A DNA stretch of 64,000 nucleotides from Mugil cephalus. Taxonomy: Eukaryota > Chordata > Actinopteri > Mugiliformes > Mugilidae. Below the pieces are notes generated by a model. That model searched no databases. It was given only the letters and a program-made list of their open reading frames with translations, and had not been told where the DNA came from. The DNA is taken from contig NC_061775.1 of NCBI RefSeq assembly GCF_022458985.1, forward strand, positions 28,984,495 through 29,048,494, read 5' to 3'. Both the position numbers and the translations under genes were made by a program. Below, one piece after another: positions 27,531 to 61,766 of the stretch (positions are counted from its first letter, which is position 1; every line of letters starts with the position of its first letter).

Positions 27531-27850
27531 CCCTCGAGCGATCTTTTGGGACAGGACACGGACAGTGACAGGCCATCCTGGAAGAAAAACTTTCAGCCTC
27601 CAACCTCAAAATTCTCTTCTGAGAAGGGAGGACTGACCGCAAACGCCCCAGATCGTTGCCGCTGGGATTTCCACGAACATAATTCAGCGAAATTCATCTG
27701 GTGAGCACTGAAATATTGACTATATATATCCTTTCTTTAAAATTTGGGTTTAAATTTGGCTTAACATTTCCATTTCTCACATATTCACAATCGTCCAGGT
27801 CTTTGTTACTTGTTCCTTAAACGAAGTAACCCGTTTTTTTTAACTGTTTT
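27531..27850. other. Remnant retroelement leader, no coding
   Basis: About 320 bases between the primer-binding site and the 3' break point of the minus-strand Penelope-like element. No motif was found. Confidence 0.35.
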
Positions 27851-28965
27851 TTGCCCATTGCCGTACCCTTTATCTGTAAATAAAATTGTTCATTGAACAC
27901 AAAATCGTTTCTCATCAAATTAATTTCCAAGAGCTGTATCAGCTCCTCATCCGGCCGGAGGGGATCGGGGTATTTTGCAAAACATTTTTTTACTGCATCA
28001 ATACCTCTAGCGATATCAATATTTGTATATAAACTGGCCACATCCATAGAAAAAAAGTAAGAATTGGATGGAATCCATAAACCCTTAATAATATCAATAA
28101 AATGATAAGTATCTTTCAAATATGCCGGATGTCTGGTGGAAAGCGGATTAAGGTAAAAATCTAAGTACTCTGCCGTGTAGTACGTTTCACTACCACAGTC
28201 AGATACTATAGGACGTCCAGGGGGCACTTCAAAAGGAACCGTCCAACTATTTGGATCCTTATGAATTTTGGGAAGAGTGTAAAAACGTCGTTCCCTTGGT
28301 TGTATATCCCCTTTTAAATACTTCCTTTGTTTTTCATTGATGAATTTCTTAGTTTTTAAATTCTGTAAAATATTGTCAATTAAAGGGATAGTGTCCATGA
28401 AGATAGGTTGAGCTAATTTTTTATAATAAATCGGATCATTCAATTGTCGTTCTGCCTCTAGTATATATTGTTCTCTATCCAATATGACAACTGTTGCCCC
28501 TTTGTCAGCAGGCTTTATGACAATATGTTTTAAATGTGTCAACTCCCTAAGAGCCTTAACTTCTTCTGTTGACAAATTACATCTCTCCTGGACTGGTCTA
28601 AAATGTATGTCAAATAAATATTTATCCTCCTCCATCAGGTTAAGGACCTCCAATGGAAGCCTTTCCGATGGAGGGGTCCAATGTGAAGGCCCCGTGAACG
28701 GAGGTACGTCCCTATTGTTTGAATCTTTAAAGTAAGTAGCCAATTGTATTCTCCTATGATAATTTTGTAAATCTGATTGAAGCTGGTTTTTCTGATTCTT
28801 ACCTATATCCAGAGATGGGACAAAGGTCAAACCTCGGCTCAGAAGATCCCTCTGTGGTTTTGAGAGCTGAAAGTTCTTAGCCAAAACTAAAACATTTTCC
28901 ACAGAAGAGGACCGAGGTCCCTCAACCCCCTCTGACGTTAGACTTAGAGGGCGGTTAAGTTTAAC
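27850..28965 (-). pseudogene. Penelope-like reverse transcriptase (ORF2), truncated, family 1
   Basis: About 370 codons in the -1 frame of ORF1, without an ATG. Blocks seen in order: KHIVIKPADKGATVVI, RRFYTLPKIHKD, GRPIVSDCGSET, FFSMDVASLYTNID (A motif with its catalytic Asp) and FYLQIKGTAMGK (B motif). The sequence then leaves the family at about 27850, so the YLDD motif and the GIY-YIG endonuclease are absent. The D-x-x-SLYTN and GTAMG signatures are those of Penelope-like elements rather than LINEs or retroviruses. Without the C motif it cannot be active. Confidence 0.9.
28924..28965 (-). promoter_or_regulatory. Candidate -1 ribosomal frameshift signal, family 1
   Basis: On the minus strand the ORF1 codons CTG TTA AAC give the heptamer G TTA AAC (28965-28959). 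Seven bases later comes CCCTCT (28951-28946), a 12-base loop, and AGAGGG (28933-28928). An outer AAC (28956-28954) can pair with GTT (28926-28924). ORF2 is in the -1 frame and its open frame covers this point. Confidence 0.7.
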
Positions 28966-30765
28966 AGGGTTGCCCAATGTTCGAGCATAGCCTGTCCCGT
29001 CTTTTTAGTCCAGTGGACATTATCAAGCTCCGTGTGGAAGTCCTCATCATCAAGTGGAGCAAGAGAGAGTAAATTCCTCTCCATATGTCCATTCAGGACC
29101 CTAAGAGTCTGTTTCTCATCTCTGGACAAAGAAGAAGAAAAATTAATCTGGGGGACCCAGACTTCAGCGTAGGGGAACTTCTTCCTAGCAGCTCTCACTG
29201 CTCCTTGTAGCTGCTTCACAGACGTTTCCTTCGCCTTTTGATTCTTATGGTTAAGTCCAAATGACAAGATGATCTTTTCCACCGTCACATTGGAGGTAGC
29301 CTTGCTCATCAAGGCCTCTGCATGTCGGAAGCTGGCCCCGGGGTAAGCATCAATTTGCAGATCCGGGATGTCATATGGTGGGATTCTAGACAAATTGGAA
29401 TCCCCCACTATCAGCCATTTCCGCGTAACATGAAGACCCCAATCAATCATTTTACGCTCAGAATTGACATGTCGTGTAGGCCTCTGACGTTGTGGTGGGG
29501 TGGGCGTCCCACCCGCTGCTGCTGTCTGGGAACCCCCGTGGTCACTCCCTGGCTGGTGAACTTGGGCCGGGGCCAAGATCTGTGCCCCTGTTTCCTCCTC
29601 GCCCCCTACAGAACTGTCCTGGCTGACCGGAAGCGCCGCACCGGCAGGTTCATCCAGGTGTACCCGCCGTGGGGAGCCGAACAAGTCCTCCAAGTCATCC
29701 AGGTAAGGACTCTGAACTTGTGGAGGTTTGGGAGAAGCCTTCCGTCCGTCGTCTGCCAAATCCAGGAACAGGTCTTCCGTCAAGACCAGCCCTCTTAGTC
29801 TCCTGGCTCCGGGATCCCTCTGTTCCAGGGGTTCCATTTGCGGAGGTTGTGGGACCTGAGGGGGCTCTAATGTGATCAGGGGCTGTGCCACCGGTTGTTG
29901 GGGGGCCTCTGTCAGCGGTGGTTGCGGTAGCGGTGGTTGTGGAGCCTGATCCGCTCCCAGGCTAGTGGCCTCAGTCGTCGTGGCTGGCACCACCGTGGTC
30001 TGTTGCGGCCCTCGGGCTTGCTGATCCGTAGGAACAGGCGGTGGTTGGTTATCACCATCAAGTCTGGCTGTTACTAGGGCCTGTGCATGGTCAATAGCCT
30101 CTTGGGTGATACGCGGCAGGTTCCGTTTGGCCCATCTGACAGCCACTTCAAAAGGCTCCTTCCAATCCCGAACCGAGAGCTCGGCAATCTCCCCCAACAC
30201 CGTGTCAAGGCTCTCTTCATAATGTTCCTGCAGAATAAGCTGGGTATTGTAACCCCAGTTTTCTGCATTCCCCTTAATCATCCCCACCGTCTTATTGGTG
30301 GGAGATGCTGGTCTTATCATCTCCGACAGGACGTCAACCATCTTGGAAATCATCCTGGGTGGCTGCCTCCCAGTCTTGGGTGCCACGTTCTGGAGATGAT
30401 GCACCATTTTGATGACTGCGTGCAGTTTTCTAGTCAGCCGCCGAAATTGTGGGCCCGCTGGCTGTCTCTTGATTCCATCCTCAGACCTGTCCCTTCGCGG
30501 AGAAACAAATCTGCGAGGGGGTCCTCGAAAATCCTGGCGGACCACGTCCGCAAACGATCGGGATTGGGGACCGTAGTATCGGGAGGGTACGGGGTGGAGG
30601 CACTGGCCGGTTAGGGAGAGGGGACCGATCCCATCCCCGTCTGGGCATGGGAGGTGCTCGGGCCATCCACTCCCCCCTCCCGTAGTCCCGAGGCGGCTGG
30701 CGACGCTGTCGGCGGCGTCCGCCGCGCTGGACGAGGGTCCAGCCGTCGTCATAATAGTCACCCAT
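28944..30765 (-). CDS. PLE ORF1, family 1: basic N-terminus plus SGNH-hydrolase-like domain
   Basis: ATG 30765 gives MGDYYDDGWTLVQRGGRRR; the frame shifts by one base near 30590 and then stays open to TAA 28944, so the copy carries one lesion. The N-terminus is rich in Arg, Gly and Pro. A helical segment follows (KLHAVIKMVHHLQNV), then a long Pro/Gln-rich linker. The C-terminal 170 residues have KWLIVGDSNLSRIP (block I, Ser), DAYPGASFRH, ILSFGLNHKN (block III, Asn) and DNVHWT (block V Asp and His). These are the SGNH/GDSL catalytic positions. Its role is unknown; esterase-type ORF1 proteins are known in CR1-type LINEs. It could be an RNA-binding or lipid-acting accessory protein. Confidence 0.8.
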
Positions 30766-30876
30766 AGCTATGGGTGACGTTTTGGATTTCAAAAATGAAT
30801 TAAAACAAATTAAAATATGAATTAAGAAACAAAAAATGAGTTATTTTGTAAAAAAACAATAAACAACTAAAGGAGG

Positions 30877-34000: not shown

Positions 34001-34026
34001 CCCCTAGCGGGGGTCGGGTTCCCCTA

Positions 34027-34218
34027 GTGAATTTCTCCCCCGACCTTCCCCAAAGGGGAAAAGGAAAACCCCAAACCTCAAGTGACCACATTGAGAGAAA
34101 TATGGGCTTCATCCCTCTCCTGCCCAATGAAAAGTTTGAGACTGAGGCAGATGATATCCATTGGACGTCAGAGACAGCAATTGAGATGCTGGAACATTGG
34201 AGGTCCTTTTTAAACTAG
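34027..34218 (+). CDS. PLE ORF1 C-terminal end, unit A
   Basis: Only the last 60 residues are left after the gap. They include DDIHWTSETAIEMLEHW, the block V Asp and His of the SGNH-like domain, and end at TAG 34216-34218. Bases 34001-34090 look slightly altered by homopolymer errors. The last sense codons TTT TTA AAC form the frameshift heptamer. Confidence 0.75.
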   Translation: MNFSPDLPQRGKGKPQTSSDHIERNMGFIPLLPNEKFETEADDIHWTSETAIEMLEHWRSFLN

Positions 34219-34250
34219 ACTGCCCTCCAAGTCTCAGAGCGGAGGGGGTC
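34209..34250 (+). promoter_or_regulatory. Candidate -1 ribosomal frameshift signal, family 2 unit A
   Basis: T TTA AAC (34209-34215) is a canonical X XXY YYZ heptamer in the ORF1 frame and is followed at once by TAG. After seven bases, CCCTCC (34223-34228) can pair with GGAGGG (34241-34246) across a 12-base loop. Outer GAC (34218-34220) can pair with GTC (34248-34250). The ORF2 frame is -1 and open through the site, with no ATG. The same signal is intact at 63850-63891, and the heptamer is intact at 48799-48805. Confidence 0.8.
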
Positions 34251-35948
34251 GATAGATCTCAGCCTTTTTTGGCTCAAGACGTGGTGGTGCTGGCAAAAAA
34301 TTTTATATTATCCAGACCACAGCATGACCTTTTGAGGAGGGGACTGACCTTTATCCCCACTCTTGACATAGGCAGGGATCAAAAAGCACAATTAGAGTTT
34401 GATTTGCAATCCTACCATCGAAAAATTAAATTAGCAGCCTACTTCAAGGATTCTGCTAGGGCCGAACCTTCGCCATTCACGTGCACTTCGACTTGGACAC
34501 CTCCATTAGAAAAACTACCATTAGAAATTACGAGTTTAATTCATAAAGATTCTGAAGATCTTAAAAAACATTTCAGACCCATTAGGGAACAACCCAATAT
34601 TTCATGTTTGGAAGTTAAAGCCCTGAGGGAATTGATACACTCTAAACATATCGTAATCAAGCCCGCTGACAAGGGGTCAGCGGTTGTCATCATGAGTAGG
34701 GAACAATACATTTTCGAGGTAGAGAGGCAATTAAAAGATGTTGAATATTATAAAAAGTTGGAAAAACCAATTTACTGGGACACCATTCCTATGATAACAG
34801 AAATCTTGGATAGATTAAAAAAGAAAAAATTCATTAATGCCAAACAAAAGCAATATCTGATGGGCGACTTGCAACCGAGGGCAAGGAGGTTCTATATCCT
34901 CCCCAAGATCCATAAGGACCCGGCTAAATGGACGATTCCAAATGAATTGCCACCCGGGAGACCTATTGTCTCCGACTGTGGGAGCGAGACATACGGTACC
35001 GCAGAATATCTGGACTATTATTTGAATCCATTGTCTCTCCTGCACCCCGCCTATGTCAGAGATACCTACCATTTCATTGAAATTGTGAGGGAACTGAGGA
35101 TCCGCTCAGACTTTTATTTCTTCTCTATGGATGTTTCCAGCCTTTACACTAATATTCCCATTGATGCTGGCATCAATTGTGTCAGAAAGATTTTTGAAAA
35201 ATACCCAGACCCCAACCGCCCAGATGAGGAGCTCTTGCAGCTATTGGAGATTAATTTAACTAGAAATGATTTCATGTTCAATGAGGAATTTTATTTACAA
35301 ATTAAAGGGACGGCGATGGGGAAAAGGTTTGCCCCAGCTTATGCGAATATTTTTATGGCTAACTGGGAGCAGGAAGCCTTCTTAAAATGTCAAAAGAGAC
35401 CAGTACATTATTTGAGATATTTGGATGATATATGGGGCATATGGGCTGGAACATTGCAGGAATTCGAGGAATTTGTGGCGACACTAAACTCTCATGACCC
35501 TTCAATCCAATTGAGCACGGAAGTCAACCAACATTCCATTGATTTTTTAGACACAACGGTTTTTAAAGGTCCAGATTTTGAAAGGACCTTCCAGTTGGAT
35601 GTCAAAGTGTACTTCAAGAGCACTGACACCCATGCTCTACTTCATAAGACAAGTTTTCACCCAAAACACACTTTCAGGGGATTGGTCAAGTCACAGATTC
35701 TTCGATTTCATCGCATATGTACACGAGAAGAAGACTTCAAGGAAGCGGTTGACATATTGTTTCGGGCTTTAAGGGACAGGGGATATTGTAGATCCTTTTT
35801 GAGACGTTGTCTTAAGACATTTCAGGACAATAAGGACAAGGATCATGGAAATTTTGTCCCTTTGATTTCCACATATTTTTCTGGCAGTAAGCATCGCATG
35901 GGAAGTTTAAAAATAATTTTGAGACCGTGTTGGGAAGCTCGGCACTGA
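34213..35948 (+). CDS. Penelope-like reverse transcriptase (ORF2), unit A
   Basis: About 580 residues in one open frame (frame of 34197), starting inside ORF1 without an ATG. Motifs with residues counted from 34197: HIVIKPADKGSAVVI (fingers), RRFYILPKIHKD, GRPIVSDCGSET, MDVSSLYTNIP with Asp312 (A), QIKGTAMG at 369-375 (B), YLRYLDDIWG with YLDD 408-411 (C) and SIDFLDTTVFK (D/E region). This is the Penelope pattern, related to telomerase reverse transcriptase. All catalytic aspartates are present. The frame ends at 35948, and the endonuclease continues in another frame because of a one-base difference near 35894 (CATCGCATGG here, ATCTGCATGG in the units at about 50370 and 60250). Confidence 0.92.
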
Positions 35949-36322
35949 TCCCAGTTTCGAGGGTAATTTCTGCCTTCAGGAGAAACAAAAATCTCTCAGA
36001 TTTTCTTATCAGGGCAAAATTGCCTTCGCTTTCAGTTGAGAGACCACTTAAGTTGGACACGCAGTTTTGCAGATTAAAATTCATAAGGAACATGAAGGAC
36101 AAAACCTTGATTAAGATCACCCAGGCCTTTAGCCCGAGAACAACTAACTGTATTTATGTTCTATTTTGTAATATGTGTGGTGTTAAATATGTTGGAGAAA
36201 CAAAGAATAATCTGTCCACACTCGAAAAGAATCAACACAAGTATAATATTAAAAACAAAAAAGAGATGGACACCCCTTTAGTTAAGCATTTTTGTTGCAC
36301 GGCTTGGACTCCATCAGAGTAG
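35927..36322 (+). CDS. GIY-YIG endonuclease domain of PLE ORF2, unit A
   Basis: The frame carries SAFRRNKNLSDFLIRA, then TNCIYVLFCNMCGVKYVGET and NQHKYNIKNKK. IYV (36152-36160) and KYVG (36185-36196) are the GIY and YIG strands, with the C..C pair that Penelope endonucleases have before the second strand. It normally forms the C-terminus of the same polyprotein as the reverse transcriptase and nicks target DNA for priming. The conserved Arg region reads STLEKN here but STRMN in the units at about 55425 and 60580, so this copy is locally altered. It ends at 36322, just before the C-rich tract. Confidence 0.88.
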   Translation: MLGSSALIPVSRVISAFRRNKNLSDFLIRAKLPSLSVERPLKLDTQFCRLKFIRNMKDKTLIKITQAFSPRTTNCIYVLFCNMCGVKYVGETKNNLSTLEKNQHKYNIKNKKEMDTPLVKHFCCTAWTPSE

Positions 36323-36449
36323 CTGGGCTGCAGAAGGACGCGTCCTGGTCAGACCAGGAACGCAAGAGGAGGGAACGGCGCTGGATTTTTTGGCTGGGCA
36401 CCCTGGAACCAGCTGGACTGAATTCCAGGAGACGGTGATCCGGCCTTAC

Positions 36450-43600: not shown

Positions 43601-46400
43601 AATATTTCCCGGCCTCCTAACCAACCAAAAACCCTTTTTTTCCTAACCCACAATTTTCTAACCCAAAAATAATTTAAACCACCATTAAAAACCAACTTAT
43701 TCCCCTTTTAACCTAAAATTTTAAAAACCCAACCAATTACTAACCCTTTTAAACAAAAACCCCAAAAAAAACAACTATTTTAAAAAACCCAATCTTCGGG
43801 AATAATTCCGGGGAAACCAAAAACCCAACCCCAACAATTTAAAACCCATTAAATTTTTAAAAACCCAAACTTTTTTAAACAAAACCCCTTTTTTAAAACC
43901 CTTTTTCCCCCCAAAACCCCCAAAAAATTCCCAAATTTTTCTTTTCCAATATTTTTTTTAAAAATAAGGTTTATTATTAAACAAACCAAAAATTTTAAAA
44001 ATTTTTTAAAAAAAAATTTAAAATCAAAAAATTTATTTCCTTTAATCAAAAAAATTTTAATTTTAAGGGGCCCTTTTTTAATAAACAAAAACCCTTTAAA
44101 CCCGGGCAAGGCCCATGGTTGGGGGCTCCCCCTTCCCCCACAGGTTTCGGCCGGGGGAAACAATTTCCCAAAAGGGGAGGCCCGAATTCCCGGCCCTCCC
44201 CTTTTTATTTAAAAAAATTTTTTTAATTTTAAAAACAAAGGCCCCAAATTTAAAAATTTTAAAGTAATCCAAAACCCTTTATTGAAAATTTTTTTAAAAG
44301 GGGAAAACCCCCCCAATTTGGAAGGGCCAATTTTTTTAAACAATTAAAAAATGAACCCCGGTCCTTAGGGGCAAAAACGGGAAAACCCCGTTCCTTCCCT
44401 TTAAAGGCCCTTCTGGGGGTGGCCCCCCCAAACCCCCGGGCAGTGGCCAATCCCCTCCGGTGGCAGGGAAAGGGCCCCCCCATTGAACCCCAATGGTCGG
44501 GCCCAACCGGCCTTTAGGCAGGAAACTCATTTCCCGGGTCCCCCAAATGCAAACCCGGCCGCCGGGGCAAGGGGGGTTCAGTCAAGTTTAACCTAAGGGT
44601 TAAACAAACGGAACAAAGGAAAAAAGAGCGAACCCAATTCCCTCTTCCGCCCCTCCAAAAAGAAACCCCCGGGGCCGCAGACCCCCATTTCCTACAAACC
44701 CAAAAAAAGGGGAAAGGGAAAAAGGGAAAAGGGCCCCCCCTTTGGGTTTTTGGGGGGAAAAAGTTCCCCCGGGGATCCCCAATTGGAAAACCTGGGGAAA
44801 TTTAAAAATTAAACCCCAAAAAATTAAACCGGAAAAAAAAAATAAAAAAGGAAAGAAAAACCCCCTAGAGGCCCTCCCTCCTTCCCCCCCCCCAGAAACC
44901 CCCCGGGCCAAAAGGCTTTTTCGCCAAAAAACACCAAACCCAATCCCCGGGCCACCCTAAAGGCCCCCCGATCCCCCCAAACCCCCCCCCCAAAGCCCCC
45001 CAAACCCCAAAAATTTTAACCCAAACCCCCCCAAAAAACAAACCCCCCACCCGAAGCAAAAAGAATTAGGGCCCCCCAAACCCCAAAAAACCCCAACCCA
45101 AACCGGGCCCCCCCCCTTATACCCCCAAAACCCAAAACCCCAAACCCTCCCCCCTTTAAAAAAAATTTCTTCCCCAAATTGCCCCCAAGATCCTCCCCCC
45201 CTTCCCCCGACGCCCCCTTACCCACCCAAAACGGTAACAAAAAGGAATTAAAATTCCCCAAAAACCCAATTTTGGAAAAACCGGATAAAATTTTCCAAAG
45301 GGATGGGTCCCCCCCAAGGTTTCCCCAAAATTTAAAGGGAAAAGGAAAAAAGGGCCCCGGGCATTTTGACCCGAAATGAAAAGGGAAAACATTAAACCCC
45401 CGAAGGGGAAGAAACATTTTAAAAAAAGAACCCAAAAAAAGAAGGCCCCCTTTCCCTTGGACGAAGCCCCCAAAAAAATCCGACCCGCCGGGCCTTTCCC
45501 TTATTTCAATTTCAAAAAAAAAGGTAAATTTTTTAGGAGTTTATTTCCCTTGCCTTTTTAAAAAAAGGGAAAAATTCCCTTGGGAATTAAAAAAGGGGGT
45601 TTTTGAATTTATTGCTTAAAGGAGGAACTTCCAAACAATTTTTCCGGGGAAGACTTAGGGCGGCCTTCCCCAAAAAAAAGGAAAACCCAAAAATCAGATT
45701 GGGAAAATTTTCCCCTCCAAAAAGGGACTTCAGAATTTGACCAACGGTTGGGAAATTTGGGTCCTTTAAGTGCAAAATTAAACAAGGGAAATTTCCTTTT
45801 TGCTTTTCCAAAAATTTTTAGAAAAATTGACCTTTGAACGGATGACCACTTATTTTCGGTTAAGGAAAAATTAGACCGGAAATTTGCTTTCAGGAAACAA
45901 TTGAAAATTTCTTATTAACCCAGAAAATAAAGGTTAAAATTAACCAAAAAAAAAAAAATTTTGTTTAAAAAAAGATTTTCCCAAAACAAAGTTAATTAAA
46001 CCAAAAAGGGACTGCCTTAAAACCTTTTGGGAAAAATAAGGTTAAAAAATTCGAAAACAATTTAATTTTAAAAAGGGGGAAAAAAATTTATGAAAAAAAA
46101 TTTAACCAAAGGCCATTTTCCCCTTCAACCCCTTTGGCCTAAATTGCAAGGGTCCTTCCACCAACGGAAAGCCCATTTTCCATAACCATTCCTTTCCCCC
46201 AAAATAGTCCTCCCAAAAAACACCCTACCTAATCCCCTTATTTCCCCCAACCTATTCCTAACCCAACCCGCCAAATTAATTACCGCCCAACCCCAATCCC
46301 CAAAAAATTTTTTTGAATAATAAATTTTAACCCCCAAATAAAACCTAAAACCCCACCCATTTGAATTTCCTTTTAAAACCCCCCCTAACCAAAACCCCTA
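37691..46400 (+). other. Severely distorted PLE units, probable low-quality gap-fill
   Basis: Homopolymers are inflated throughout (long runs of A, C, G and T), and frames are meaningless. Traces of the unit still appear in order. ORF1-like text lies at 38160-38640 (CAAAACTACGGTGGCCATG, CGGTCCCGGTGACGGAAGAC). CCTAACC-rich tails lie at about 40440-40860, and hammerhead-flank-like text (GCAGCCGAAGCAACGG) near 41030. ORF1-like text returns at about 41300-41920, with C-rich stretches again at about 43400-43760 and 46180-46570. It probably holds two or three collapsed units. No gene call in this interval should be trusted. Confidence 0.7.
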
Positions 46401-46424
46401 TTTTTACCCACCCTAACCTCGTGT

Positions 46425-46575
46425 TATCCGGCCCTAACCCTAACCTAACCCCAATTTAGTCTAACCCTAACCCGATTTCTATCCTAACCCCTAACCATTA
46501 TTCTTTCGGCCCTAACCCTAACCATACCTCATTTAGTCTAACCCTAACCGATTTCAATCTAACCCTAACCATATT
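46425..46575 (+). repeat. C-rich tail of the unit preceding unit C
   Basis: CCGGCCCTAACCCTAACC, CAATTTAGTCTAACCC and CGATTTC spacers match the last part of the unit A tail. Sequence quality recovers here. Confidence 0.85.
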
Positions 46576-46849
46576 CCCTTATACTTTAATACATTAAAAA
46601 TACATAAATTCATTAAAAACTATCAAACATATTAAAAATAATTGAAATTACATTAAATCATTGATAACAGGGGATTATAGGGTTAAACATTAGGGGGAGG
46701 GGTAGTTAACAAAAAGACGATAACAAATTCGACTGAAACTAATGAACGAAACAAACCGATTACACAGGGGAAACAAGAGCAGGACGTCATTTGCGCTTTG
46801 ACAGCCGAAGGAGCAACATCCCCGACTGTGCTGAGCGTACAGCTTTTAT

Positions 46850-46901
46850 GTGTCCGACCTGAAGAAGGCCTACAACAGCCGAACGTCGTCGGACGGCACA
46901 C
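46850..46901 (+). ncRNA. Hammerhead-like motif before unit C (deletion-bearing)
   Basis: It matches the unit A motif, with single-base losses in stem I (GTGTCCG), in stem II and in GAAA (GAA). These losses fit the deletion-rich quality of this stretch. Confidence 0.6.
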
Positions 46902-47192
46902 ATTTTTCATTTTTTGGCCAATTCATTTGTTTTTGAAATTAATAAAACATATTAAGCTGATTTTTAATTGTAAATAAAAAACAAGAAGACAGACACATTT
47001 AAGTTCATTTTGACAGTTTGTTTTAAAATCAGTATTTAAAACTTCTCAGTTAAAAAATTCTTTTCCCACTTTTGAGGGAAGCGTTTTTATTCTTTTAAAC
47101 AAAAGAAATTTAATTTTTCCTTTCCCAATTCGGGAAGGCGTTTTATTTCATTTTAATTCATTTCAACAAAAACAAATATTAAAACACCCATC

Positions 47193-48808
47193 ATGGACGG
47201 ACGGTGGACTGAGTCGCTATGGTAGGAGGCGCCGTCGAACTACGACCTCGCTGGACGGGTTTCGGAGTCCTTGGGTGGATGACAGAGCACCCCTTCCTTT
47301 ACGGGGGAAGGCTCAGATCCCTCCTCTAAGGCAGGCCTCCCAGGGGTTCGCGCTACGCTGGTCCCCAATCCCCGTCATTGCAGCGTCTTCGCCATGGAAC
47401 CAGGGCCCCCATTCAGGTTCTCCACGGATGGGAGTCAGAGTTCGCGACAGCCCGCCGACCCTCAATTTGGGAGGCTGTTCGAAAAATTCATTCTGTGGTG
47501 AGAGGTCCACCACCTACAAAACGTGTCACCAGAAACGGGACACCTGAACCAGAATGATTTAGGATGGTGGAGGTCATGTCCAACATTATTAACCTGCATC
47601 TCCGACCCATACTTTACCTCATTTTGTATGCTAGAAACTGGCTCACCAACTGCCTCATTCTACCCAATGGACGGGAATGCTTAAGTGCTTTTTGGAAGAG
47701 GCTTTCGGGTTCCCACAAGCTGATTGGAAATCCGCCTTCGAGGTGGCGTTAATGGGCCAGAAGGAACTTAAACCGCATCACACAGGATGAAATCGACCAG
47801 CGGAGCCATTCGCATCCACATTGGACACGGCAAATGTTACTCCGTTAGGGCCAAGGCAGTCACAGACCACCAAAACTACGGTGGCACGATGATCGATCAA
47901 CCCGGTTCGTCCGGTGGGGGAAAAGACAGGGGAGTTCAGGGCTCTCCCAGGTGGAATCTCCTCAAGTTGGCCTTTCACAGCCAGACTCACCTCGTGAACA
48001 GAGGGTTATTTCAGAGGCAGGAAACTAAGGCAGTGGTCTGTTGGGGACAATCTCACTGACCCACCTGATGCCATTGGCCCAAAGTCCCGGGGTGAGGCTC
48101 ATCCGACTCAACATCAAGATCTGGAGGCACTTTTTGACGAACTGCATGAGAGAGAAAGGGAGGAGAGAGGCAGAGGAAGAAAAGGAAGAAGAAAGAGGAG
48201 CGCAGGCAGCCAGTTCTCTCCTTGGACGTTGAGGCCAAGCCCGCCCGGTACAAGTACCCTTTGACCGGGATCCCTTTGAGGATTCCTTTGTTCATACCTC
48301 GCCTGGGCACGTTTCAGGGTCAACGACATCCAATACACGGAATCACAGTTGGACTCTGAGATTAGAAAGAAAGTTTATTATTGGGGATTCCAATTTGAGC
48401 AAATACCTGATTTTGATCATGAAGACCTCCAGATAGAGAGTTACCCGGGAGCCATTTCCGACATGAAGGCCTTATGGAAAAAGGTGGCCAAAGAAGACTT
48501 GGTGGCGAAAAGATCATATTGTCATTCGGCATAATAGTAGAGGAACAGTCCAAAGAAACCACATCAAGAGTTTTGCAGGGGGCCATCGAATCGCTAGAGA
48601 AAGTTTCCTGCAGGGGTCTGGTTCCCCTAGTGAATTTCTCCCGACCTTGCCCCAGAGGAGAAGAAAACCTCAAACCCTCAGACCACATGAGAGAATATGG
48701 GCTTATCCCTCTCCTGCCCAATGAAAGTTGAGACTGAGCAGATGATATCCATTGGACGTCAGAGACAGCATTGAGATGCTGGAACATTGGAGGTCCTTTT
48801 TAAACTAA
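47193..48808 (+). pseudogene. PLE ORF1, unit C (frames broken)
   Basis: It starts at ATG 47193 (MDGRWTE-like) and ends at TAA after TTT TTA AAC. The SGNH-like region (about 48360-48800) has GGGGATTCCAATTTGAGC at block I. Many one-base deletions break the frame; their density is like that of the non-coding flanks, so sequencing error is likely. Confidence 0.75.
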
Positions 48809-50768
48809 GCTGCCCTCAATCTCAAGCGGAGGGGTCGAAGAATCTCAGCCTTTTCTTGTCTCAGATTCTGTGTGCTGGCAAAAAATTTTATATTATCCAG
48901 ACACCACATGACCTTTTGAGGGGGGACTGACCTTTATCCCCACTTTGACATAGGCAGGGATCAAAAAGACAATTAAGTTTGATTGCAATCTACATCGAAA
49001 AAAAATTAGCAGCCTACTTCAAGGATTCTGCAGGGCCGAACCTTCGCCATCCAGTGCACTTCGACTTGGACACCTCCATTAAAAAACTACCATTAGAAAT
49101 TACGGTTTAATCATAAAGATTCTGAAGATCTTAAAAAACATTTCAGACCCATAGGGAAAACAACCATATTTCATGTTTGGAAGTTAAGCCTGAGGAATTG
49201 ATCACTCTAACATATCGTAACAAGCCGCTGACAAGGGTCAGCGGTTGTCATCATGAGTAGGAACATACATTTTCGAGGTAGAGAGGCAATTAAAAATGTT
49301 GAATATATATAAAAAGTTGAAAACCAATTACTGGGGACCATTCCTATGAAAACAGAAATCTTGGATAGATTAAAAAGAAAAAATTCATTAATGCCAAACA
49401 AAAGCAATATCTGATGGGCGACTTGCACAGGGCAGGAGGTTCATTCCTCCCCAAGATCCATAAGGACGGCTAATGGACGATTCCAAATGATTGCCACCCG
49501 GAGACTATTTCTCGACTTGGAGCGAGACTTACGGTATACGAAATATTGGATTTATTTGAATCATTGTCTCACCTGCACACGCCTATTCAGAGATACCTAC
49601 CATTTCATTGAAATTGTGAGGGAACATGAGGATCCCTAGACTTTATTTTTCTTATGAGTTTCCAGCTTTACACTAATATTCTCCTTTGATGCTGGCATCA
49701 TTGTTGTCGAAAGATTTTTGAAAAATACCCAGACCCAACGCCCAATGAGGAGTCTGCAGCTATTGGAGATTAATTTAACTAAAATGATTCATGTTCATGA
49801 GGAATTTATTAAATAAAGGGACGCGATGGGGAAAAGGTTTTGCCCAGCTTATGCGAATATTTTATGGCTAACTGGAGCAGGAAGCCTTCTTAAAATGTCA
49901 AAGAGACCAGTACATATTGAGATATTGATGATATATGGGGCATATGGCTGGAACATTGCAGGAATTCGAGGAATTTGTGGCGACACTAAATCTCAGACCT
50001 TCAATCCATTGAGCACGGAAGTCAACCAACATTCCATTGATTTTTTAGACACAACGGTTTTTAAGGTCCAGATTTGAAAGGACCTTCCAGTTGATGTCAA
50101 AGTGTACTTCAAGAGCACTGACACCATGCTCTACTTCATAAGACAAGTTTCACCCAAAACCACACTTTAGGGGATTGGTCAAGTCACAGATTCTTCGATT
50201 CATCGCATTGACAAGAAGAAGACTTCAAGGAGAGCGGTTGACATATTGTTTCGGCTTTAAGGACAGGGATATGTAGATCCTTTGAGACGTTGTCTTAAGA
50301 CATTTCAGGACATAAGGACAAGGATCATGAAATTTGTCCCTTTGATTCCACATATTTTTCTGGCAGTAAGATCTGCATGGGAAGTTTAAAATAATTTTGA
50401 GACCGTGTTGGGAAGTCGCACTGATCCCAGTTTCAGGGTAATTTCGCCTTCAGGAGAACAAAATCTCTCAGATTTTCTATCAGGGCAAATTGCCTTCGCT
50501 TCAGTTGAGAGACCACTTAAGTTGGACACGCAGTTTTGAGATAAAATTCATAAGGAACATAAGGACAAAACCTGATTAAGATCACCCAGGCCTTTAGCCC
50601 GGAGAACAACTAACTGTATTTTGTTCTATTTTTAATATGGTGTTGTTAAATATTGGAGAACAAAGAATAATCTTCACCGAATAATCAACACAGTAATATT
50701 AAAAACAAAAAAGAGATGGACACGCCTTTAGTTAAGCATTTTTGTTGCACGCTGGACTCATAGAGTAC
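48799..50768 (+). pseudogene. PLE ORF2 (reverse transcriptase and GIY-YIG endonuclease), unit C (frames broken)
   Basis: Colinear with unit A ORF2 at DNA level over its whole length, with frequent single-base losses. The C motif region is at about 49920 and the GIY-YIG region at about 50610-50660. The heptamer TTTAAAC is intact at 48799-48805. Near 50370 the sequence ATCTGCATGG joins reverse transcriptase and endonuclease in one frame, unlike unit A. Confidence 0.8.
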
Positions 50769-50879
50769 TGGGCATGCAGAAGGACGCTCCTGGTCAGACA
50801 GAACGCAAGGAGGAACGGCGTGGATTTTTGGCTGGCACCCTGGAACCAGCTGGACTGAATTCCAGAGAGGTATCCGGCT

Positions 50880-51432
50880 TACCTAAATCTGGCCTAATCC
50901 TATCCCAACTGGACTCTAACCTAAACACACCTCTATATTGGCCCTAACCCTAACATAGTCCCTAACCCTAACCCAGTCCTAATCCGGCCCTAACCCTAAC
51001 CATTATCTACCGGGCCCTAAAACCTAACCATTCCCTAATTTGACTCTAACCCCAAATCGATTGTTAACCCAAACCCTAACCTTATTCTTATCCGGCCCTA
51101 AACTAACCATACCTCAATTTAGTCTAGCCCCAACCGTTTCTATCCTAACTAACCACAGTCCCTAACCCAACCACAGTCTAATCCGCCTAACCCTAACATT
51201 ATCTTAAACCGGCCCTAAACTAACCTAACCCTAATTTGACTCTACCCTAACCTATTTTTAACCTAACTATACATATTGTTATCCGGCCCTACCCTAACCT
51301 AACCCTCAATTAGTCTAACCTAACCCGATTTCAATCCTAACCTAACCAAATTCTTATCCGGCCCAACCTACCATCCCTCAATTTAGTCTAACCCATAACC
51401 CGATTTTAACCTAACCCTAACCATATTCCCTT
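50880..51432 (+). repeat. Degenerate CCCTAA tail, unit C
   Basis: Same spacers in the same order as the unit A tail, shortened by scattered deletions. Confidence 0.9.
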
Positions 51433-51700
51433 AATACTTTAAATACATTTAAAATACATAATTCATAAAAACTATCAAACTATATTAAAAATAATTGAAA
51501 TTACATTCAAATCATTGATATCAGGATTATAGGTTAAACATTAGGGGGGGTTGTACAAAAAAGCGATAACAAATTCGACTGAAAACTAATGAACGAAAAA
51601 CAAACCGAGGTCAACAGGGGAAACAAGAGCAGAGCGTCATTTGCGCTTGACAGCGAAGGACGCACTCTCCCGACTGTGCTGAGAGCGAGCAGATTTTACT

Positions 51701-51754
51701 GTGTCCGGACCTGAAGAAGGCCTACAACAGGCCGAACGTCGTCGGACGGCACAC
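51701..51754 (+). ncRNA. Hammerhead-like motif before unit D (deletion-bearing)
   Basis: CTGAAGA core, GGCCT/AGGCC stem II, GAA in place of GAAA, then CGTC and CGGCACAC. Two single-base losses against the unit A motif. Confidence 0.65.
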
Positions 51755-52043
51755 ATTTTTCATTTTTGGCAATCATTGTTTTTGAAATTAATAAAACATA
51801 TTAAGCTGATTTTAGTTATTGTAATTAAAAACAAGAAGACGACACAATTTAAGTTCATTTGACAGTTTTTTTAAAATCAGTATTTTAAAAACATTCTAGT
51901 TAAAAAAATCCTTTCCCATTTGAGGAAAGCGTTTTATTTCATTTTAAAACAAAGAAATTTAATTTTTCCTTCCAATTCGGGAAGGCGCTTTTATTTCATT
52001 TTAATTCATTTCAACAAACAACAAATATTTAAAAAAACCACAT

Positions 52044-53666
52044 CATGGAGGACGGTGGACTGAGGTCTATGGTAGAGGCGCCCTCGAACACCGATCGCTG
52101 GGACCAGGTTTCGGGAAGCCTTCGGTGGATGGACAGAGACCTCCCTTCCCCTAGGGGAAGGGCTCAATCCTCCTCCTAACGGCCGCGCCTCCCCCAGGGG
52201 CTTCGCGCTACGCTGGTCCCAATCCCGCTCATATGCAGCGGTTCTTCGCCAAGGGAACAAGGGCCCCCCCCATTTCAGAGTTCCACGGATGGGGAGTCAG
52301 AGGTTCGGCGACAGCCCGCCGACCCTCAATTTGGGAGGCTGTTCGAAATTCATTCTGTGGTGAAGATGGTCCACCACCTACAAAACGTGTCACAGAACTG
52401 GACACCTGAACCCAGATGATTTCTAGGATGGTGGAGGTATGTCAACATGATTAGACCTGCATCTCGACCCAGCACCTTGGACCTCATTGTTTGTAATGCT
52501 GAAATGGGGCCATACCACTGCCATTTTACCGGAGCATTATGAGGAAGGCCTATGGTGCTTTTGGAAGAGCTTTGGTGTCCCCACAGCAATTGGAGATACC
52601 TTCGAGTGGCGGTTAGATGGCCAAGAAGGAACTTAAACCATCACACAGGATGAAATCGACCACGCGGAAGCATGGTCGCATCCACATTGGACACGGCAAT
52701 GTAGCTCCGGTTAGGGCCCCAGTGCAGTCACAGACCACCAAAACTACGGTTGGCCACGATGACCGATCAACCCGGTTCGTCCCGTGACGGAAGACGGAAG
52801 TTCAGGGCTCTCCACAGGTGAATTCCTCAGTTGGCTTTAACAGCCAGACTCACCTCGTGAACAGGTTACTTTCAGAGGCAGGAAACCTAAGGCAGTGGTC
52901 CTGTCTGGGGACAATCTCATGTACACCTGATGCCATTGGCCCAGAGGAGTCCGGGGGCTGAGGCTCCAGTCGAGACTCCACCATCAAGATCTGGAGCACT
53001 TTTTGAAACTGCATGAGGAGGAGAAAAGGGAGGAGAGAAGGCAGAGGAAGAAAGGAAGAAGAAGAGAGCGCAGGCAGCAAGTTCCTCTCCTTGGACGTTG
53101 AGGCAAGCCCGGCCCGGTTCACAGAAGTACTCCTTCTGACCGGTCCCTTGAGGATCCTTTGTTATAACCTCGCTGGCCACGTTTCAGGTCAACAGACATC
53201 CCAATACCAACGGAAACTCACAGATTGGACTCTGGAGATTAGAAAGAAAAGTTCTCATTATTGGGGATTCCAATTTGAGCAAAATACCTGATTTTGATCA
53301 TGAGACCTCCAGATAAGAGTTACCGGGAGCCATTTCCGACATGGCGGAGGCCCTTATGGAAAAAAAACGGTGGCGCCAGAAACTTGGTGGCGAAAGATCA
53401 TATTGTAATTCGCATAATGTGAGGAACATCAAAGAACCACCATCAAGAGTTCAGGGCCACATAATCCCTAAGAGAAAGTTCCCTAGCGGTCTGGTTCCCA
53501 GGATTCTCCCCGACCTTGCCCCCGAGAAGGAAACCTCCAAACCCAAATCAATTGAAGAATATGGCTTCATCCCTCCTGCCCAATGAAAGTTGGAGCGAGG
53601 CAGATGATATCCATTGGCGTCAGAGACAGCAATTGAGATGCTGGAACATTGGAGTCTTTTAAATGA
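52044..53666 (+). pseudogene. PLE ORF1, unit D (frames broken)
   Basis: Colinear with unit E ORF1, starting at ATG 52044, with many one-base losses. The SGNH-like block I (about 53260) and the DDIHW region (about 53605) are recognisable at DNA level. The heptamer region reads TTTTAAATGA, missing bases. Confidence 0.72.
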
Positions 53667-55510
53667 CTGCCTCAATTCAGACGGAGGGGGCGATAGATCT
53701 CAGCCTTTTTTGGCTCAACTGTGTGCTGGCAAAAATTTTTATTACAGACCACAGATGCTTTTGAGGAGGGGACTGACTTTATCCACCTTGACTAGCGGGA
53801 TCAAAGACAATAGAGTTTATTTGAACTACCATCGAAAAATTAAATTGCAGCCACTTCAAGATTCTGCTAGGCGAACTTCGCCATCCGTGCACTTGACTTG
53901 GACACCTCATTAGAAACTACCATTAGAAATACGAGTTTATTCATAAAGATCTGAAGATCTTAAAAAAACATTCAGACCCTTAGGAACAACCCAATATTTC
54001 AGTTGGAAGTTAAAGCCCTGAGAATTGATACACTCTAACATACGTAATCAAGCCCGCTGACAGGGGTCAGGTTGTCTCATAGTAGGAAAATCTTTAGGTA
54101 GAGAGGCATAAAATGTGAATATTATAAAAAGTTGGAAAACATTTATGGGACACCATTCTATGATAACAGAAATCTTGGAAGATTAAAAAGAAAAATTCAT
54201 AATGCCAAACAAAAGCATACGATGGGCACTTGCAACCGAGGGCAAGGAGGTTATATCTCCCAATCATAAGGCCCGTAAAGACGATTCAAATGAATTGCCA
54301 CCGGGAGACCTATTGTTCCGACTGTGGGAGCGAGACACGGTACGCAGATATCTGACTATTATTATCCATTGTCTCTCCTCACCCGCCATGTCAGAGTACA
54401 CCATTTCATTGAATTGTAGGACTGAGGTCCGCTCGACTTTTATTTTCTTTGGTGTTTCCACCTTTACACTAATATTCCCATGAGCTGGCATCAATTGTGT
54501 CAAAATTTTTGAAAACCAGACCCAACCGCCAGATGAGGAGCTCTTGCAGTATTGGAGATAATTTAACTAGAAATGATTCATGTCAATGAGGAATTTTATT
54601 TACAATTAAGGGCGCGATGGGGAAAAGGTTTGCCCACTATGCGAATATTTTTATGGCAACTGGAGCAGAACTTCTTAAAATGTCAAAAGAGACAGTACTT
54701 ATTTGAGATATTTGGATGATTATGGCATATGGGCTGGAAATTGCGGATTCGAGGAATTTGTGGCGAACTAAACTTCATGACCTTCAATCATTGAGCCGGA
54801 AGTCAACCAACATTCCATTGATTTTTAGACACACGGTTTTAAAGCCATTTTAAAGACCTTCCAGTTGGAGTCAATGTACTTCAGGCACTGACCCCATGCT
54901 CTACTCTAAGACAGTTTTCCCCAAAACACATTTCAGGGATTGGTCAAGTCAAGATTCTTCTTTCATCGCATATGTACACGAGAAGAAGATTCAAGGAAGG
55001 GTTGACATATTGTTTCGTTTAAGGGACGGGGATTGTAGACTTTTTGAGACGTTGTCTTAAGACATTCAGAATAGGACAAGGATGGAAATTTGTCCTTTGA
55101 TTCACATATTTTGGCAGTAGCATCGCATGGGAAGTTTAAAAATAATTTTGAACCGGTTGGGAAGCTCGGCATGATCCAGTTTCGAGGGATTTTGCCTTCA
55201 GGAGAAACAATCTCTCAGATTTTTATCAGGAAAATTGCCTTCTTTCAGTTGAGACCACTTAGTTGGAAGAGTTTTGCAGATTAAAATTCATAGGAACAGA
55301 AGACAAACCTTGATTAAGATCACCAGCCTTTAGCCGGAACAACTAACTGTTTAGTTCATTGTAATATGTGTGGTGTTAAATATGTTGGAGAAACAAAGAA
55401 TATCTGTCCACTCGAATGAACAAACAATATAATATTAAAAACAAAAAGGATGGACACGCCTTTAGTAAGCATTTTTTGTTGCACGGCTTGGACTCCACAG
55501 AGTATGGCTG
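53660..55510 (+). pseudogene. PLE ORF2, unit D (frames broken)
   Basis: Colinear with unit A ORF2 and with the heaviest deletion load of the readable units. The C motif is near 54710, the GIY-YIG region is at about 55345-55400, and STRMN-like text is near 55415. Confidence 0.75.
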
Positions 55511-55619
55511 CAGAGGACGCGTCTGGTCAGCCAGGAACGAAGAGAGGAACGGGCTGGATTTTGGCTGGGCACCTGGAACCAGCTGGACTGAATTCCGGGA
55601 CGGTGATCCGCCTTACTAA

Positions 55620-56165
55620 ATCTGGCCCAATCCTAATCCCAACTGGACTCTAACCCTAACACACTCTATATTGGCCTAACCCTAACCATAGTCCTAACCC
55701 TACCACAGCCATCGCCTAACCCTAACATTTCTAACCCGGCCTAACCTAACCATTCCTAATTTGACTTAACCCATTGATTGTTAACCTACCCTAACCTATT
55801 CTTATCCGGCCTAACCTAACCTACCTCATTTTCTGCCCCACCGATTTCTATCCTAACCTAACCACGTCTAACCCAACCACAGTCCTAATCCGGCCCTAAC
55901 CCTTTAACCATTATCCTTAACCCGGCCCAAAAACCCAACCCTAACCCTAATTTGACTCTAACCCTAAACCCTATTTTTAACCCTAACCCTAACCATCATT
56001 GTTATCCCGGCCCTAACCCTAACCTAACCCTCAATTTAGTCTAACCCTAACCCGATTTCTAATCCTAACCCTAACCATTATTCTTATCCCGGCCCTAACC
56101 CTAACCATACCCTCAATTTAGTCTAACCCTAACCCGATTTCTAATCCTAACCCTAACCATATTCC
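55620..56165 (+). repeat. Degenerate CCCTAA tail, unit D
   Basis: The first part is deletion-rich. From about 55900 the sequence becomes clean and matches the unit A tail almost base for base. Confidence 0.9.
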
Positions 56166-56460
56166 CTTAATACTTTAAATACATTTAAAAATACATAAAT
56201 TCATTAAAAACTATCAAACTATATTAAAAATAATTGAATTACATTCAAATCATTGATATACAGGGGATTATAGGGTTAAACATTAGGGGGAGGGGTTGTT
56301 AACAAAAAGACGATAACAAATTTCGAACTGAAAACTAAATGAACGAAAAACAAACCGAGGTTACAACAGGGGAAACAAGAGCAGGAGCGTCATTTGCGCT
56401 TTGACAGCCGAAGGAGCAACATCTCCCCGACTGTGCTGAGAGCCGTAGCAGCATTTTACT

Positions 56461-56516
56461 GTGTGCCGGACCTGAAGAAGGCCTACAACAGGCCGAAACG
56501 TCGTCGGACGGCACAC
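56461..56516 (+). ncRNA. Hammerhead-like motif before unit E (intact)
   Basis: Identical in length and core to 37338-37393: CTGAAGA, GGCCT/AGGCC, GAAA, CGTC and GTGTGCCG/CGGCACAC. The ORF1 start of unit E is about 310 bases downstream. Confidence 0.75.
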
Positions 56517-56824
56517 ATTATTTGATTTTTTGGCCATTTCATTGATTTTTGATTTAAATACAACATATTAAGCTGATTTTAGTTATTGTAAATTAAAAAA
56601 ACAAGAAAGACAGAAACAATTTAAGTTCATTTTGACAGTTTATTTTAAAATCAGTATTTAAAAACATTCTCAGTTAAAACAATCCTTTCCCACCTTTGAG
56701 GAAAGCGTTTTTATTTTATTTTAAAACAGAAGTCATTTAATTTTTCCTTTCCCAATTCGGGAAGGCGCTTTTATTTCATTTTAATTCATTTCAACAAACA
56801 ACAAATATTTAAAAACACCACATC

Positions 56825-58580
56825 ATGGACGGACGGTGGACTGAGGTCCGCTATGGTAGGAGGCGCCGTCCGAACTACCGACCTCGCTGGGACCAGGGTT
56901 TCGGGAGGTCCTTCGGGTGGATGGACAGAGCACCTCCCTTCCCCTTTACGGGGGGAAGGGCTCAGATCCCTCCTCCTAACCGGCCAGCGCCTCCCCCAGG
57001 GGCTTCGCGCTACGCTGGTCCCCAATCCCGCTCATATGCAGCGGTTCTTCGCCAAGGGAACCAAGGGCCCCCCCGATTTCAGAGTTCTCCACGGGATGGG
57101 GAGTCAGAGGTTCGGCGACAGCCCGCCGACCCTCAATTTGGGAGGCTGGTTCGAAAACTTCATTCTGTGGTGAAGATGGTCCACCACCTACAAAACGTGT
57201 CACCAGAAACTGGGACACCTGAACCCAGAATGATTTCTAGGATGGTGGAGGTCATGTCCAACATGATTAGACCTGCATCTCCGACCCAGCGTACCTTGGA
57301 CCTCATTGTTGGTAATGCTAGAAACTGGGGCCATACCACCTGCCTCATTCTTACCGAGCATTATGAGGAAGGCCTTAAGGTGCTTTTGGAAGAGCTTTCG
57401 GGTCTCCCCACAGCTGATTGGAAATCCGCCTTCGAGGTGGCGGTTAGATGGGCCAGAAGGAACTTAAACCGCATCACACAGGATGAAATCGACCACGCGG
57501 AAGCCATGGTCGCATCCACATTGGACACCGGCAATGTAGCTCCGGTTAGGGCCCCAGTGCAGTCACAGACCACCAAAACTACGGTGGCCACGATGACCGA
57601 TCAACCCGGTTCGGTCCCGGTGACGGAAGACAGGGGAGTTCAGGGCTCTCCACAGGTGGAATCTCCTCAAGTTGGCCTTTCACAGCCAGACTCACCTCGT
57701 GAACAGAGGGTTACTTTCAGAGGCAGGAAACCTAAGGCAGTGGTCCTGTCTGGGGACAATCTCACTGACCCACCTGATGCCATTGGCCCAGAGGAGTCCC
57801 GGGGGGCTGAGGCTCCAGTCCGAGACTCCACACATCAAGATCTGGAGGCACTTTTTGACGAACTGCATGAGGAGGAGAAAAGGGAGGAGAGAAGGCAGGA
57901 GGAAGAAAAGGAAGAAGAAAGAGGAGCGCAGGCAGCCAGTTCCTCTCCTTGGACGTTGAGGCCAAGCCCGGCCCGGGTTCACAGAAGTACTCCTTCTGAC
58001 CGGGATCCCTTTGAGGATTCCTTTGGTTCATATACCTCGCCTGGGCCACGTTTCAGGGTCAACAGACATCCCAATACCCAACGGAAACTCACAGATTGGA
58101 CTCTGGAGATTAGAAAGAAAGTTCTCATTATTGGGGATTCCAATTTGAGCAAAATACCTGATTTTGATCATGAAGACCTCCAGATAGAGAGTTACCCGGG
58201 GAGCCATTTCCGACATGGACAGGCCCTTATGGAAAAAACAAGGGTTTGGCGCCAGAAAGACTTGGTGGTCGAAAAGATCATATTGTCATTCGGCATTAAT
58301 AGTAGAGGAAACAAGTCCAAAGAAACCACCATCAAGATTTTGCAGGGGGCCATCAGATCCGCTAAGAGAAAGTTTCCCTATGCAGGGGTCTGGGTTCCCT
58401 AGTGAAATTTTCTCCCCGACCTTTCCCCAGAGGAGAAGAAACCTCCAACCCTAATGACCACATTTAGAATATGGGCTTCATCCTCTCCTGCCAATGAAAA
58501 GTTTGAACTGAGGCAGTTTTATCCATGGCGTCAGAGACAGCAATTGAATGTGGAACATTGGAGGGCCTTTTTAAAATAGA
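56825..58580 (+). CDS. PLE ORF1 with SGNH-hydrolase-like domain, unit E (best N-terminus)
   Basis: Open for 525 residues from ATG 56825 to 58402. It then shifts frame through a one-base loss at 58395-58400 (GGTTCCCTAGTG, against GGTTCCCCTAGTG in other units). The N-terminus is basic and aromatic (WTEVRYGRRRRPNYRPRW), then Pro-rich, then SRSYAAVLRQG and the helix KLHSVVKMVHHLQNV. A charged EEE/RRE/KEE run precedes the SGNH-like domain: VLIIGDSNLSKIP (Ser439), SYPGSHFRH, ILSFGINSRGN. The final D-x-x-H block is seen in units A and F. Full length is about 590-600 residues. The charged run is probably coiled. Confidence 0.85.
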
Positions 58581-60680: not shown

Positions 60681-60809
60681 GCTGGGCTGCAGAAGGGCGC
60701 GGTCCTGGTCCCGACCAGAACGCAAGAGGAGGGGGAAAGGCGCTGGATTTTTTGGCTGGGCACCCTGGAACCAGCTGGACTGAATTCCAGGAGACGGGGG
60801 GATCCGGCC

Positions 60810-61707: not shown

Positions 61708-61766
61708 GTGTGCCGGACCTGGAAGAAGGCCTACAACAGGCCGGGAAAAGTCGTCGGACGGCACAC
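61708..61766 (+). ncRNA. Hammerhead-like motif before unit F (insertion-bearing)
   Basis: The core and stems of unit A are present, but with added bases (CTGGAAGA and GGGAAAAG). These fit the insertion-type errors of this stretch. Confidence 0.6.

Follow-up and report, generated by a model that had tools for sequence, protein, structure and literature searches.

The window analysed here, a 64,000-nt stretch of the Mugil cephalus genome, carries a Penelope-like family on each strand, and in both of them the reverse transcriptase (RT) frame, ORF2, is very likely reached by programmed −1 ribosomal frameshifting at the end of a preceding ORF1. With a probability of roughly 0.87, we read the junction as the −1 frameshift signal of a two-ORF teleost Penelope-like element whose extended product would be an ORF1-RT-endonuclease fusion. 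Among eukaryotic retroelements the Penelope-like class is still poorly understood; membership in it follows from the predicted domain order of ORF2, in which the RT precedes a GIY-YIG endonuclease (EN). What we infer is the mechanism, including that frameshifting occurs, how often it does so, what the stem contributes and how the fusion is used. Most ribosomes would translate ORF1 (a helical domain and an SGNH hydrolase) and terminate a few codons past a slippery heptamer. Some would stall there, with UUA and AAC occupied by tRNA-Leu and tRNA-Asn, re-pair one base upstream on NUU AAA, and enter ORF2. The fusion, carrying both RT and GIY-YIG, would then be made in proportions resembling those of Gag and Gag-Pol. 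The pause would probably be stimulated by a stem that begins about 7 nt downstream of the heptamer, and a G or A as first base of the heptamer would forfeit one of the P-site pairs, as at the arterivirus site GUUAAAC.

The features of both families are collected in Table 1. The family on the plus strand, the second in the window, spans 34.0–37.7 kb, and its ORF1, interrupted by a 500-N gap (33501–34000), ends in TCC TTT TTA AAC TAG. ORF2 is open across this end in the −1 frame, and its first Met comes only after KPADKG, at about residue 170; the frame closes before the GIY-YIG part. The original prediction had described an ATG-less ORF2 overlapping the end of ORF1 in the −1 frame, and a T TTA AAC heptamer followed by a stop, a 7-base spacer and a 6-bp stem with a 12-base loop, and all of these features were recovered. 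The minus-strand family, whose RT is 66% identical in amino acids to that of the plus family, reads CTG TTA AAC TTA ACC GCC CTC TAA at its junction, and its ORF2 is likewise in the −1 frame without an AUG near its start. Here the same prediction stood in part: the −1 phase, UUAAAC, the 7-base spacer (TTAACCG) and the loop length are kept, but the stop follows AAC as the fifth codon rather than directly, and the heptamer, as GTTAAAC, lacks the three identical X bases, a first-base mismatch to X XXY YYZ. Neither window element is intact. The idea that every TTTAAAC carries meaning was rejected: with 41 occurrences in the window (28 on the plus strand and 13 on the minus), the heptamer tells little by itself, and the case rests on phase and conservation.

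Table 1. Junction features, coding regions and flanking motifs in the window and in related loci (window positions unless a locus is named).
Feature	Locus	Position	Strand	Basis or remark
Slippery heptamer U UUA AAC, plus family	window	34209..34215	+	direct reading
Stop codon TAG of plus-family ORF1	window	34216..34218	+	direct reading
Spacer TAGACTG (7 nt), plus family	window	34216-34222	+	
Hairpin, plus family: 6-bp stem, 12-nt loop	window	34223..34246	+	7 nt past heptamer
5' arm CCCTCC, loop, 3' arm GGAGGG	window	34223-34228, 34229-34240, 34241-34246	+	
Outer helix, plus family: GACT with GGTC	window	34218-34221 with 34247-34250	+	
ORF1 3' end (end of SGNH domain), plus family	window	34018..34218	+	after N gap; tblastn 34018-34227
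ORF2, −1 frame, RT part, plus family	window	34185..35948	+	RVT_1 E 3.5e-6
GIY-YIG-like segment of plus-family ORF2	window	36139..36330 (approximate)	+	by eye; other frame in window copy
Slippery heptamer G UUA AAC, minus family	window	28959..28965	-	direct reading
Hairpin CCCTCT/AGAGGG, 12-nt loop, minus family	window	28928..28951	-	z -2.95 in 62 nt
Outer helix, minus family: CTTAACC with GGTTGAG	window	28959-28953 with 28927-28921	-	
ORF1, minus family: helical domain and SGNH hydrolase domain	window	28944..30767	-	
ORF2, −1 frame, minus family	window	27817..29004	-	truncated past RT core; frame closes at 27817
Tandem array, plus-family units of about 5 kb, indel-rich	window	46385..64000	+	self-comparison
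Heptamer TTTAAAC, tandem plus-family copy	window	48799..48805	+	
Heptamer TTTAAAC with hairpin, another tandem plus-family copy	window	63850..63856	+	
Telomere-like tract	window	31227-31626	-	
Telomere-like tracts	window	36440-37045, 46385-46580, 50942-51431, 55633-56167, 60808-61411		
Telomere-like tract after ORF2	L001	about 5400-5750		
Hammerhead-like motifs	window	37349-37376, 56472-56499	+	
Hammerhead-like motif	window	30919-30892	-	
Hammerhead-like motif	L001	about 6.5 kb		
ATG overlapping ORF1 stop (ATGTTAG)	L002	1090-1096		
Element loci in the same genome	C6, C15, C14, C4, C17	29.01-29.05 Mb, 25.358 Mb, 22 kb, 11 kb, 24.347 Mb		

Conservation of the site was found in both reading frames. 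Among 87 relatives of ORF1, 76 have an HW block near their end and 75 extend at least five residues beyond it; Leu-Asn falls exactly at W+4/+5 in 72 of these 75 (the exceptions being P0154 with LD, P0200 with LK and P0201 with GN), and 62 of the 72 end exactly four residues after it. LN is also near-invariant in a 54-row ORF1 alignment, and the three residues before it are variable (2.8, 2.7 and 3.4 bits in the 62 rows, which were chosen for LN). Relatives of ORF2 number 2852 in the protein collection, and among the best 120 of these, 46 start at or before the site and 45 of the 46 have [F/V/I]-Lys there (FK 26, VK 16, IK 3), with P0108 (FR) as the exception. Since LN in one frame and [FVI]K in the other occupy the same bases, the DNA is constrained to NTTAAA(C/T), on conservation read mostly from software-called proteins. 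Relatives of both proteins with a named source are mostly teleost. The first internal Met of the 46 ORF2 proteins is scattered (0-based positions 30–310); 36 of them carry some internal Met before KPADKG, but in that region only one column besides the called start reaches Met in as many as 7 of 28 rows. Judged from these alignments, ORF2 is without a conserved AUG near its start in most families, and the signal is not local to the window but common to many relatives.

The two frames were also compared without selection for either motif, by overlaying all 75 ORF1 tails on all 229 ORF2 starts at 25 offsets in three phases (16,259 to 17,175 pairs each, with the start residue omitted). All 35 fits are in the −1 phase and place [FVI]K over LN, 18 of them at offset 2, 4 at offset 5 and 13 at offset 11, which represent a single −1 register in proteins whose starts were called differently; the other two phases and the other offsets among the 25 gave no fits. 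Those at offset 2 decode to GTTAAAC (8), TTTAAAC (6), TTTAAAY (3) and GTTAAAY (1). Many fits come from close relatives, and the 35 are not independent events. Nine ORF1/ORF2 pairs come from equal-sized contigs and are placed on one contig by equal size alone; in two of them (P0121/P0023 and P0168/P0081) the ORF2 extends as far as the site, and each pair fits at that junction offset alone; the other seven ORF2s start further down.

DNA of further families carries the junction as well. The same genome holds few related families; one of them (C15; loci L014/L022) has TTTAAAC in GAGCTTTTTAAACTCC, with HW-MSF-LN-SAAL-stop, an ORF2 frame open for 754 aa and a broken ORF1, and a decayed copy on C23 (L011) has TTTAAAC in GCTTTAAACTGGTAG. 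The C14 copy (with one extra A) and the C4 copy are decayed. Relatives in DNA were absent from viral contigs, plasmids and phages, and among genome contigs two loci were found. The first, L001, in an Epulopiscium single-cell assembly, contains one unit in which neither frame is interrupted around TTTAAAC, and the beginning of a second unit that has an identical junction and is cut by the end of the stretch. In the second, L002, from an Enterovibrio assembly, ORF1 ends in LDLC and TTTATGTTAG places an AUG across the ORF1 stop, directly preceded by GGATTTA, which we take to be a possible slip site by analogy to the dianthovirus GGAUUUU. Both loci are evidently eukaryotic retrotransposon DNA in bacterial assemblies (single cell, MAG), and L002 may represent a switch from frameshifting to reinitiation. 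Loci L012/L024, L013, L016, L017, L018, L019 and L047 were set aside as decayed or more distant, with no clean junction.

A second search with a distant member as query added 109 ORF2 proteins, and 96 of the resulting 229 could be typed at the site: 74 as FK, 4 as FF, 1 with the overlapping ATG and 17 as other types, among them P0291, which by eye is FF as well. A tree of 61 of the 96 (all typed second-search rows with KPADKG and every third row of the first search) was built with a quick method and rooted at its midpoint. FK rows lie on both sides of this root, and a Phe-Phe-[R/T/V] clade with 99% SH-aLRT (P0285, P0295, P0300, P0306 and P0291) is nested within the tree; its residues are those expected from a putative heptamer made of UUUUUU plus A, C or G. 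A decayed copy in the same genome (L019, positions 1740–1770) has TGGAAGGTTTTTTTTTTAGTT at the end of its ORF1, with an RT remnant in another frame. The L002 protein, P0208, starts at the overlapping ATG and adjoins an FK row within the FK rows. Another 14 rows form a clade whose N-termini are extended and lack the motif, and which probably has its own start. On this midpoint-rooted tree, which makes the direction of heptamer change a matter of interpretation, the simplest reading would be that frameshifting is old in the group, switched its heptamer once and disappeared at least twice. Because one clade would have exchanged UUUAAAC for UUUUUUN and one lineage for an AUG overlapping the stop, we regard it as probable that selection keeps frameshifting itself, and that this branch of vertebrate Penelope-like elements is organized in the manner of Gag and Gag-Pol.

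The hairpin downstream of the heptamer was examined separately. In the plus family (P34), the stem is the minimum-energy fold in segments of 40, 45, 50 and 75 nt and not in those of 60, 62 and 92 nt. Stems also begin 6–7 nt after the heptamer in the minus family (M28), C15 and L001, and in the decayed C4 and C14 copies; C23, also decayed, has only a different, weak stem. The two-sided changes described in the original prediction are present: a C-G pair at the stem top becomes T-A, and a G-C pair of the outer helix becomes A-T. When five families are aligned by their arms, which were chosen for pairing, five of the six pairs change on both sides and none is broken. Aligned by codons instead, L001 and C14 are out of register, and by eye they would break two and three pairs. 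Under synonymous recoding with the protein fixed, a 6-bp stem 5–9 nt downstream arises with probability 0.11 in P34, 0.19 in M28, 0.17 in C15, 0.15 in L001 and 0.02 in C14; for a stem at exactly +7 nt, the values are 0.015 (P34), 0.08 (M28), 0.12 (C15) and 0.085 (L001), and C14 has no stem at exactly that distance in this analysis. These probabilities are not to be multiplied, as the families share ancestry. Minimum free energies compared with a synonymous-type null gave p values of 0.27 (P34), 0.09 (M28), 0.18 (C15) and 0.0003 (L001). Dinucleotide shuffles gave z scores of −0.5 (62 nt) and −1.05 (92 nt) for the plus family, −1.5 for L001, and −2.95 and −2.23 for the minus family.

The 5' arm of the stem is supported by ORF1. 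In all 62 rows that end four residues after LN, the penultimate ORF1 residue is restricted to A (27 rows), T (19), S (14) and P (2), and one of these four residues is found there in each of 26 looser clusters; the residue varies, but the second base of its codon, which is the first base of the stem, is held at C (although S could be AGC). Among 35 proteins whose called start is the UUG within HW, the ORF2 frame has P and G in 35 of 35 and E in 26 of 35, and the codons of the two invariant residues supply the stem with its CC and GG. The claim that covariation marks selection on RNA structure was thin on two sequences and is qualified: two-sided changes at five of six pairs in five families favor it, but the shifted register and the coding constraint explain part of the pattern. 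Aligning more copies left the heptamer conserved, while the hairpin is shifted in two families and different in C23.

From these patterns we consider the hairpin the probable stimulator, with less certainty than we attach to frameshifting, since coding yields such a stem in 11–19% of recodings and two families need a shifted register. If frameshifting is real, the stimulator may instead be a pseudoknot, a longer stem that includes the outer helix, or nothing at all, a sizeable possibility that we nonetheless hold to be less than even. The codon-aware tests are weak in three of the four families, and the outer helices differ among them (GACU/GGUC, CUUAACC/GGUUGAG, CUCCG/CGGAG and CUUC/GAAG), both of which would suit a different stimulator; stems with two-sided changes at 6–7 nt in P34, M28, C15, L001 and C4 speak for the 6-bp hairpin, as do the ORF2 P and G. 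The arm-encoding P....EG pattern points both ways, being absent in several distant FK families, such as P0217, P0229, P0236 and P0256, and retained in the distant families P0292, P0307 and P0309.

Other routes to ORF2 would leave the heptamer incidental. Termination-reinitiation, or a near-cognate start (UUG/CUG) within the overlap, finds a precedent in L002, where the ATG at 1090 overlaps the ORF1 stop at the homologous place and P0208 starts there, and many families have a UUG in the −1 frame (HW being CA-UUG-G). Yet the other families lack a conserved AUG, P0208, by its place beside an FK relative within the FK rows, looks derived, and L002 itself has the possible slip site; moreover, initiation of this kind leaves LN and [FVI]K in both frames unexplained, and we judge it very unlikely. 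It is more improbable still that the motif reflects a constraint on the ORF2 protein (FKL..P....EG), with ORF2 made from a separate mRNA of its own, either spliced or internally initiated. The conservation of P, G and E in the ORF2 frame would agree with such a constraint, but the ORF1 frame is equally constrained over the same bases (LN in 72 of 75), the variation of the penultimate ORF1 residue among A, T, S and P fixes only a base, and FF replaces FK in one clade. Splicing at the junction was rejected on sequence grounds, as we infer from having seen no shared GT..AG. The −1 frameshift proposed originally is the reading that we retain, with the heptamer conserved in both frames, the DNA of further families and the FF clade all pointing to it.

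The proteins on either side of the junction were characterized from predicted structure and domain searches. The model of the minus-family ORF1 (mean pLDDT 70.8) contains a helical domain (residues 106–240) and a C-terminal alpha/beta domain (about 430–601), both at high confidence, with disordered stretches between domains. The best Foldseek match of the C-terminal domain is a PAF acetylhydrolase (E 2.7e-6), and other SGNH hydrolases are also matched. Residues S457, G477, G504, N506, D582 and H585, which we take to be the SGNH catalytic residues, are invariant in 54 ORF1 rows, and Lipase_GDSL_2 is matched in 7 of the 54; the window's own ORF1 has no Pfam match, and the ORF1 alignment had no credible counterpart among PDB sequences (best E 0.079). 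By its modelled fold and invariant residues, ORF1 is an SGNH/GDSL hydrolase. LN lies at the end of the last helix of the model, and because His585 is 18 residues before Asn603, the frameshift would come right after a complete SGNH domain. The RVT_1 match of the window ORF2 scores 27.3 bits, under the Pfam cut-off of 29.6, and GIY-YIG is above its cut-off in two of three ORF2 relatives scanned.

The heptamers correspond to known slip sites: UUUAAAC is used by HTLV and IBV, GUUAAAC by the arterivirus EAV, and UUUUUUA by HIV-1. The junction resembles retroviral, LTR-retrotransposon and coronaviral signals in its X XXY YYZ phase, early stop, spacer of about 7 nt, downstream stem, and placement of a structural ORF before the polymerase; unlike the retroviral and coronaviral signals, it lies in a Penelope-like element, between an SGNH-hydrolase ORF1 and an RT/GIY-YIG ORF2. 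No frameshift element was matched in a search of Rfam. The supposed novelty of the signal holds within the literature searched, where no report of −1 frameshifting in Penelope-like elements stood among the matches listed; subscription journals were mostly outside that literature, and an earlier note may exist. In the available portions of these sources, the frameshifts mentioned are defects (PMC3846280) or, in the sole mention in each, concern LTR elements (PMC5408684, PMC6431247).

Canonical Penelope-like elements (Penelope/Poseidon), as the available part of PMC11167929 describes them, have a single ORF and share with the present elements RT and GIY-YIG in one ORF, tandem units and a hammerhead-like motif; the elements described here differ in a preceding ORF1 joined by a −1 shift. 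An SGNH hydrolase likewise occupies the ORF1 position in the CR1, L2 and RTEX non-LTR elements, according to the available text of PMC3905857 and PMC5408684, although these belong to a different retroelement class and, compared by description only, the ORF1 here adds a helical domain. The Athena/Terminon elements of bdelloid rotifers are similar in combining a Penelope-like RT with a GDSL ORF, hammerhead motifs (here hammerhead-like) and telomeric repeats (here telomere-like), but are called EN-deficient, with GIY-YIG-like ENs only among their accessory ORFs, in the available portions of PMC5408684 and PMC6431247, whereas GIY-YIG is in the RT protein of relatives here. If many Penelope-like elements make a regulated ORF1-RT fusion, then the existence of a particle, the ratios of the proteins and the likeness to Gag-Pol become testable, and gene models that split ORF1 from ORF2, or miss the AUG-less ORF2, would need revision. 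Double-frame conservation also provides a set of natural heptamer variants (UUUAAAC, GUUAAAC, AUUAAAC and the putative UUUUUUN).

Within the tandem array of plus-family units, the copy at 58 kb has TTTAAAA and that at 53 kb has TTTAAAT beside a deletion. Sequencing errors, and not decay, may account for many of the array's frame breaks. The stretch at about 38–46 kb of the window is rich in homopolymer runs. Degenerate telomere-like CCCTAA/TTAGGG tracts are part of the units and lie downstream of ORF2 in the plus family. A hammerhead-like CTGANGA..GAAAC motif occurs four times in the window against 0.9 expected, three of these in element flanks; Rfam gave no hammerhead match in the two stretches searched, even at E 10.

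The best places of the minus-family ORF2 in its own genome (E 2.7e-20 or better) are on C6, C15, C14 and C4, at about 0.2 Mb, about 4 kb, 22 kb and 11 kb from a contig end, respectively. With the distant query P0300, the C17 copy abuts a contig end. This distribution is possibly that of an endonuclease-bearing Penelope-like element with a subtelomeric habit, and a strict form of that reading is weakened by a P0300 match in the interior of C13 (3.3 Mb of 26.8 Mb, E 5.6e-91) and by weaker matches of the same query that are also interior to chromosomes. Elsewhere in the window, positions 3775–4313 form a tandem repeat with self-matches in 58-base steps, and an ORF at 6183–6812 presumably encodes an RNA-binding domain, which by eye resembles the last RRM of an ELAVL protein.
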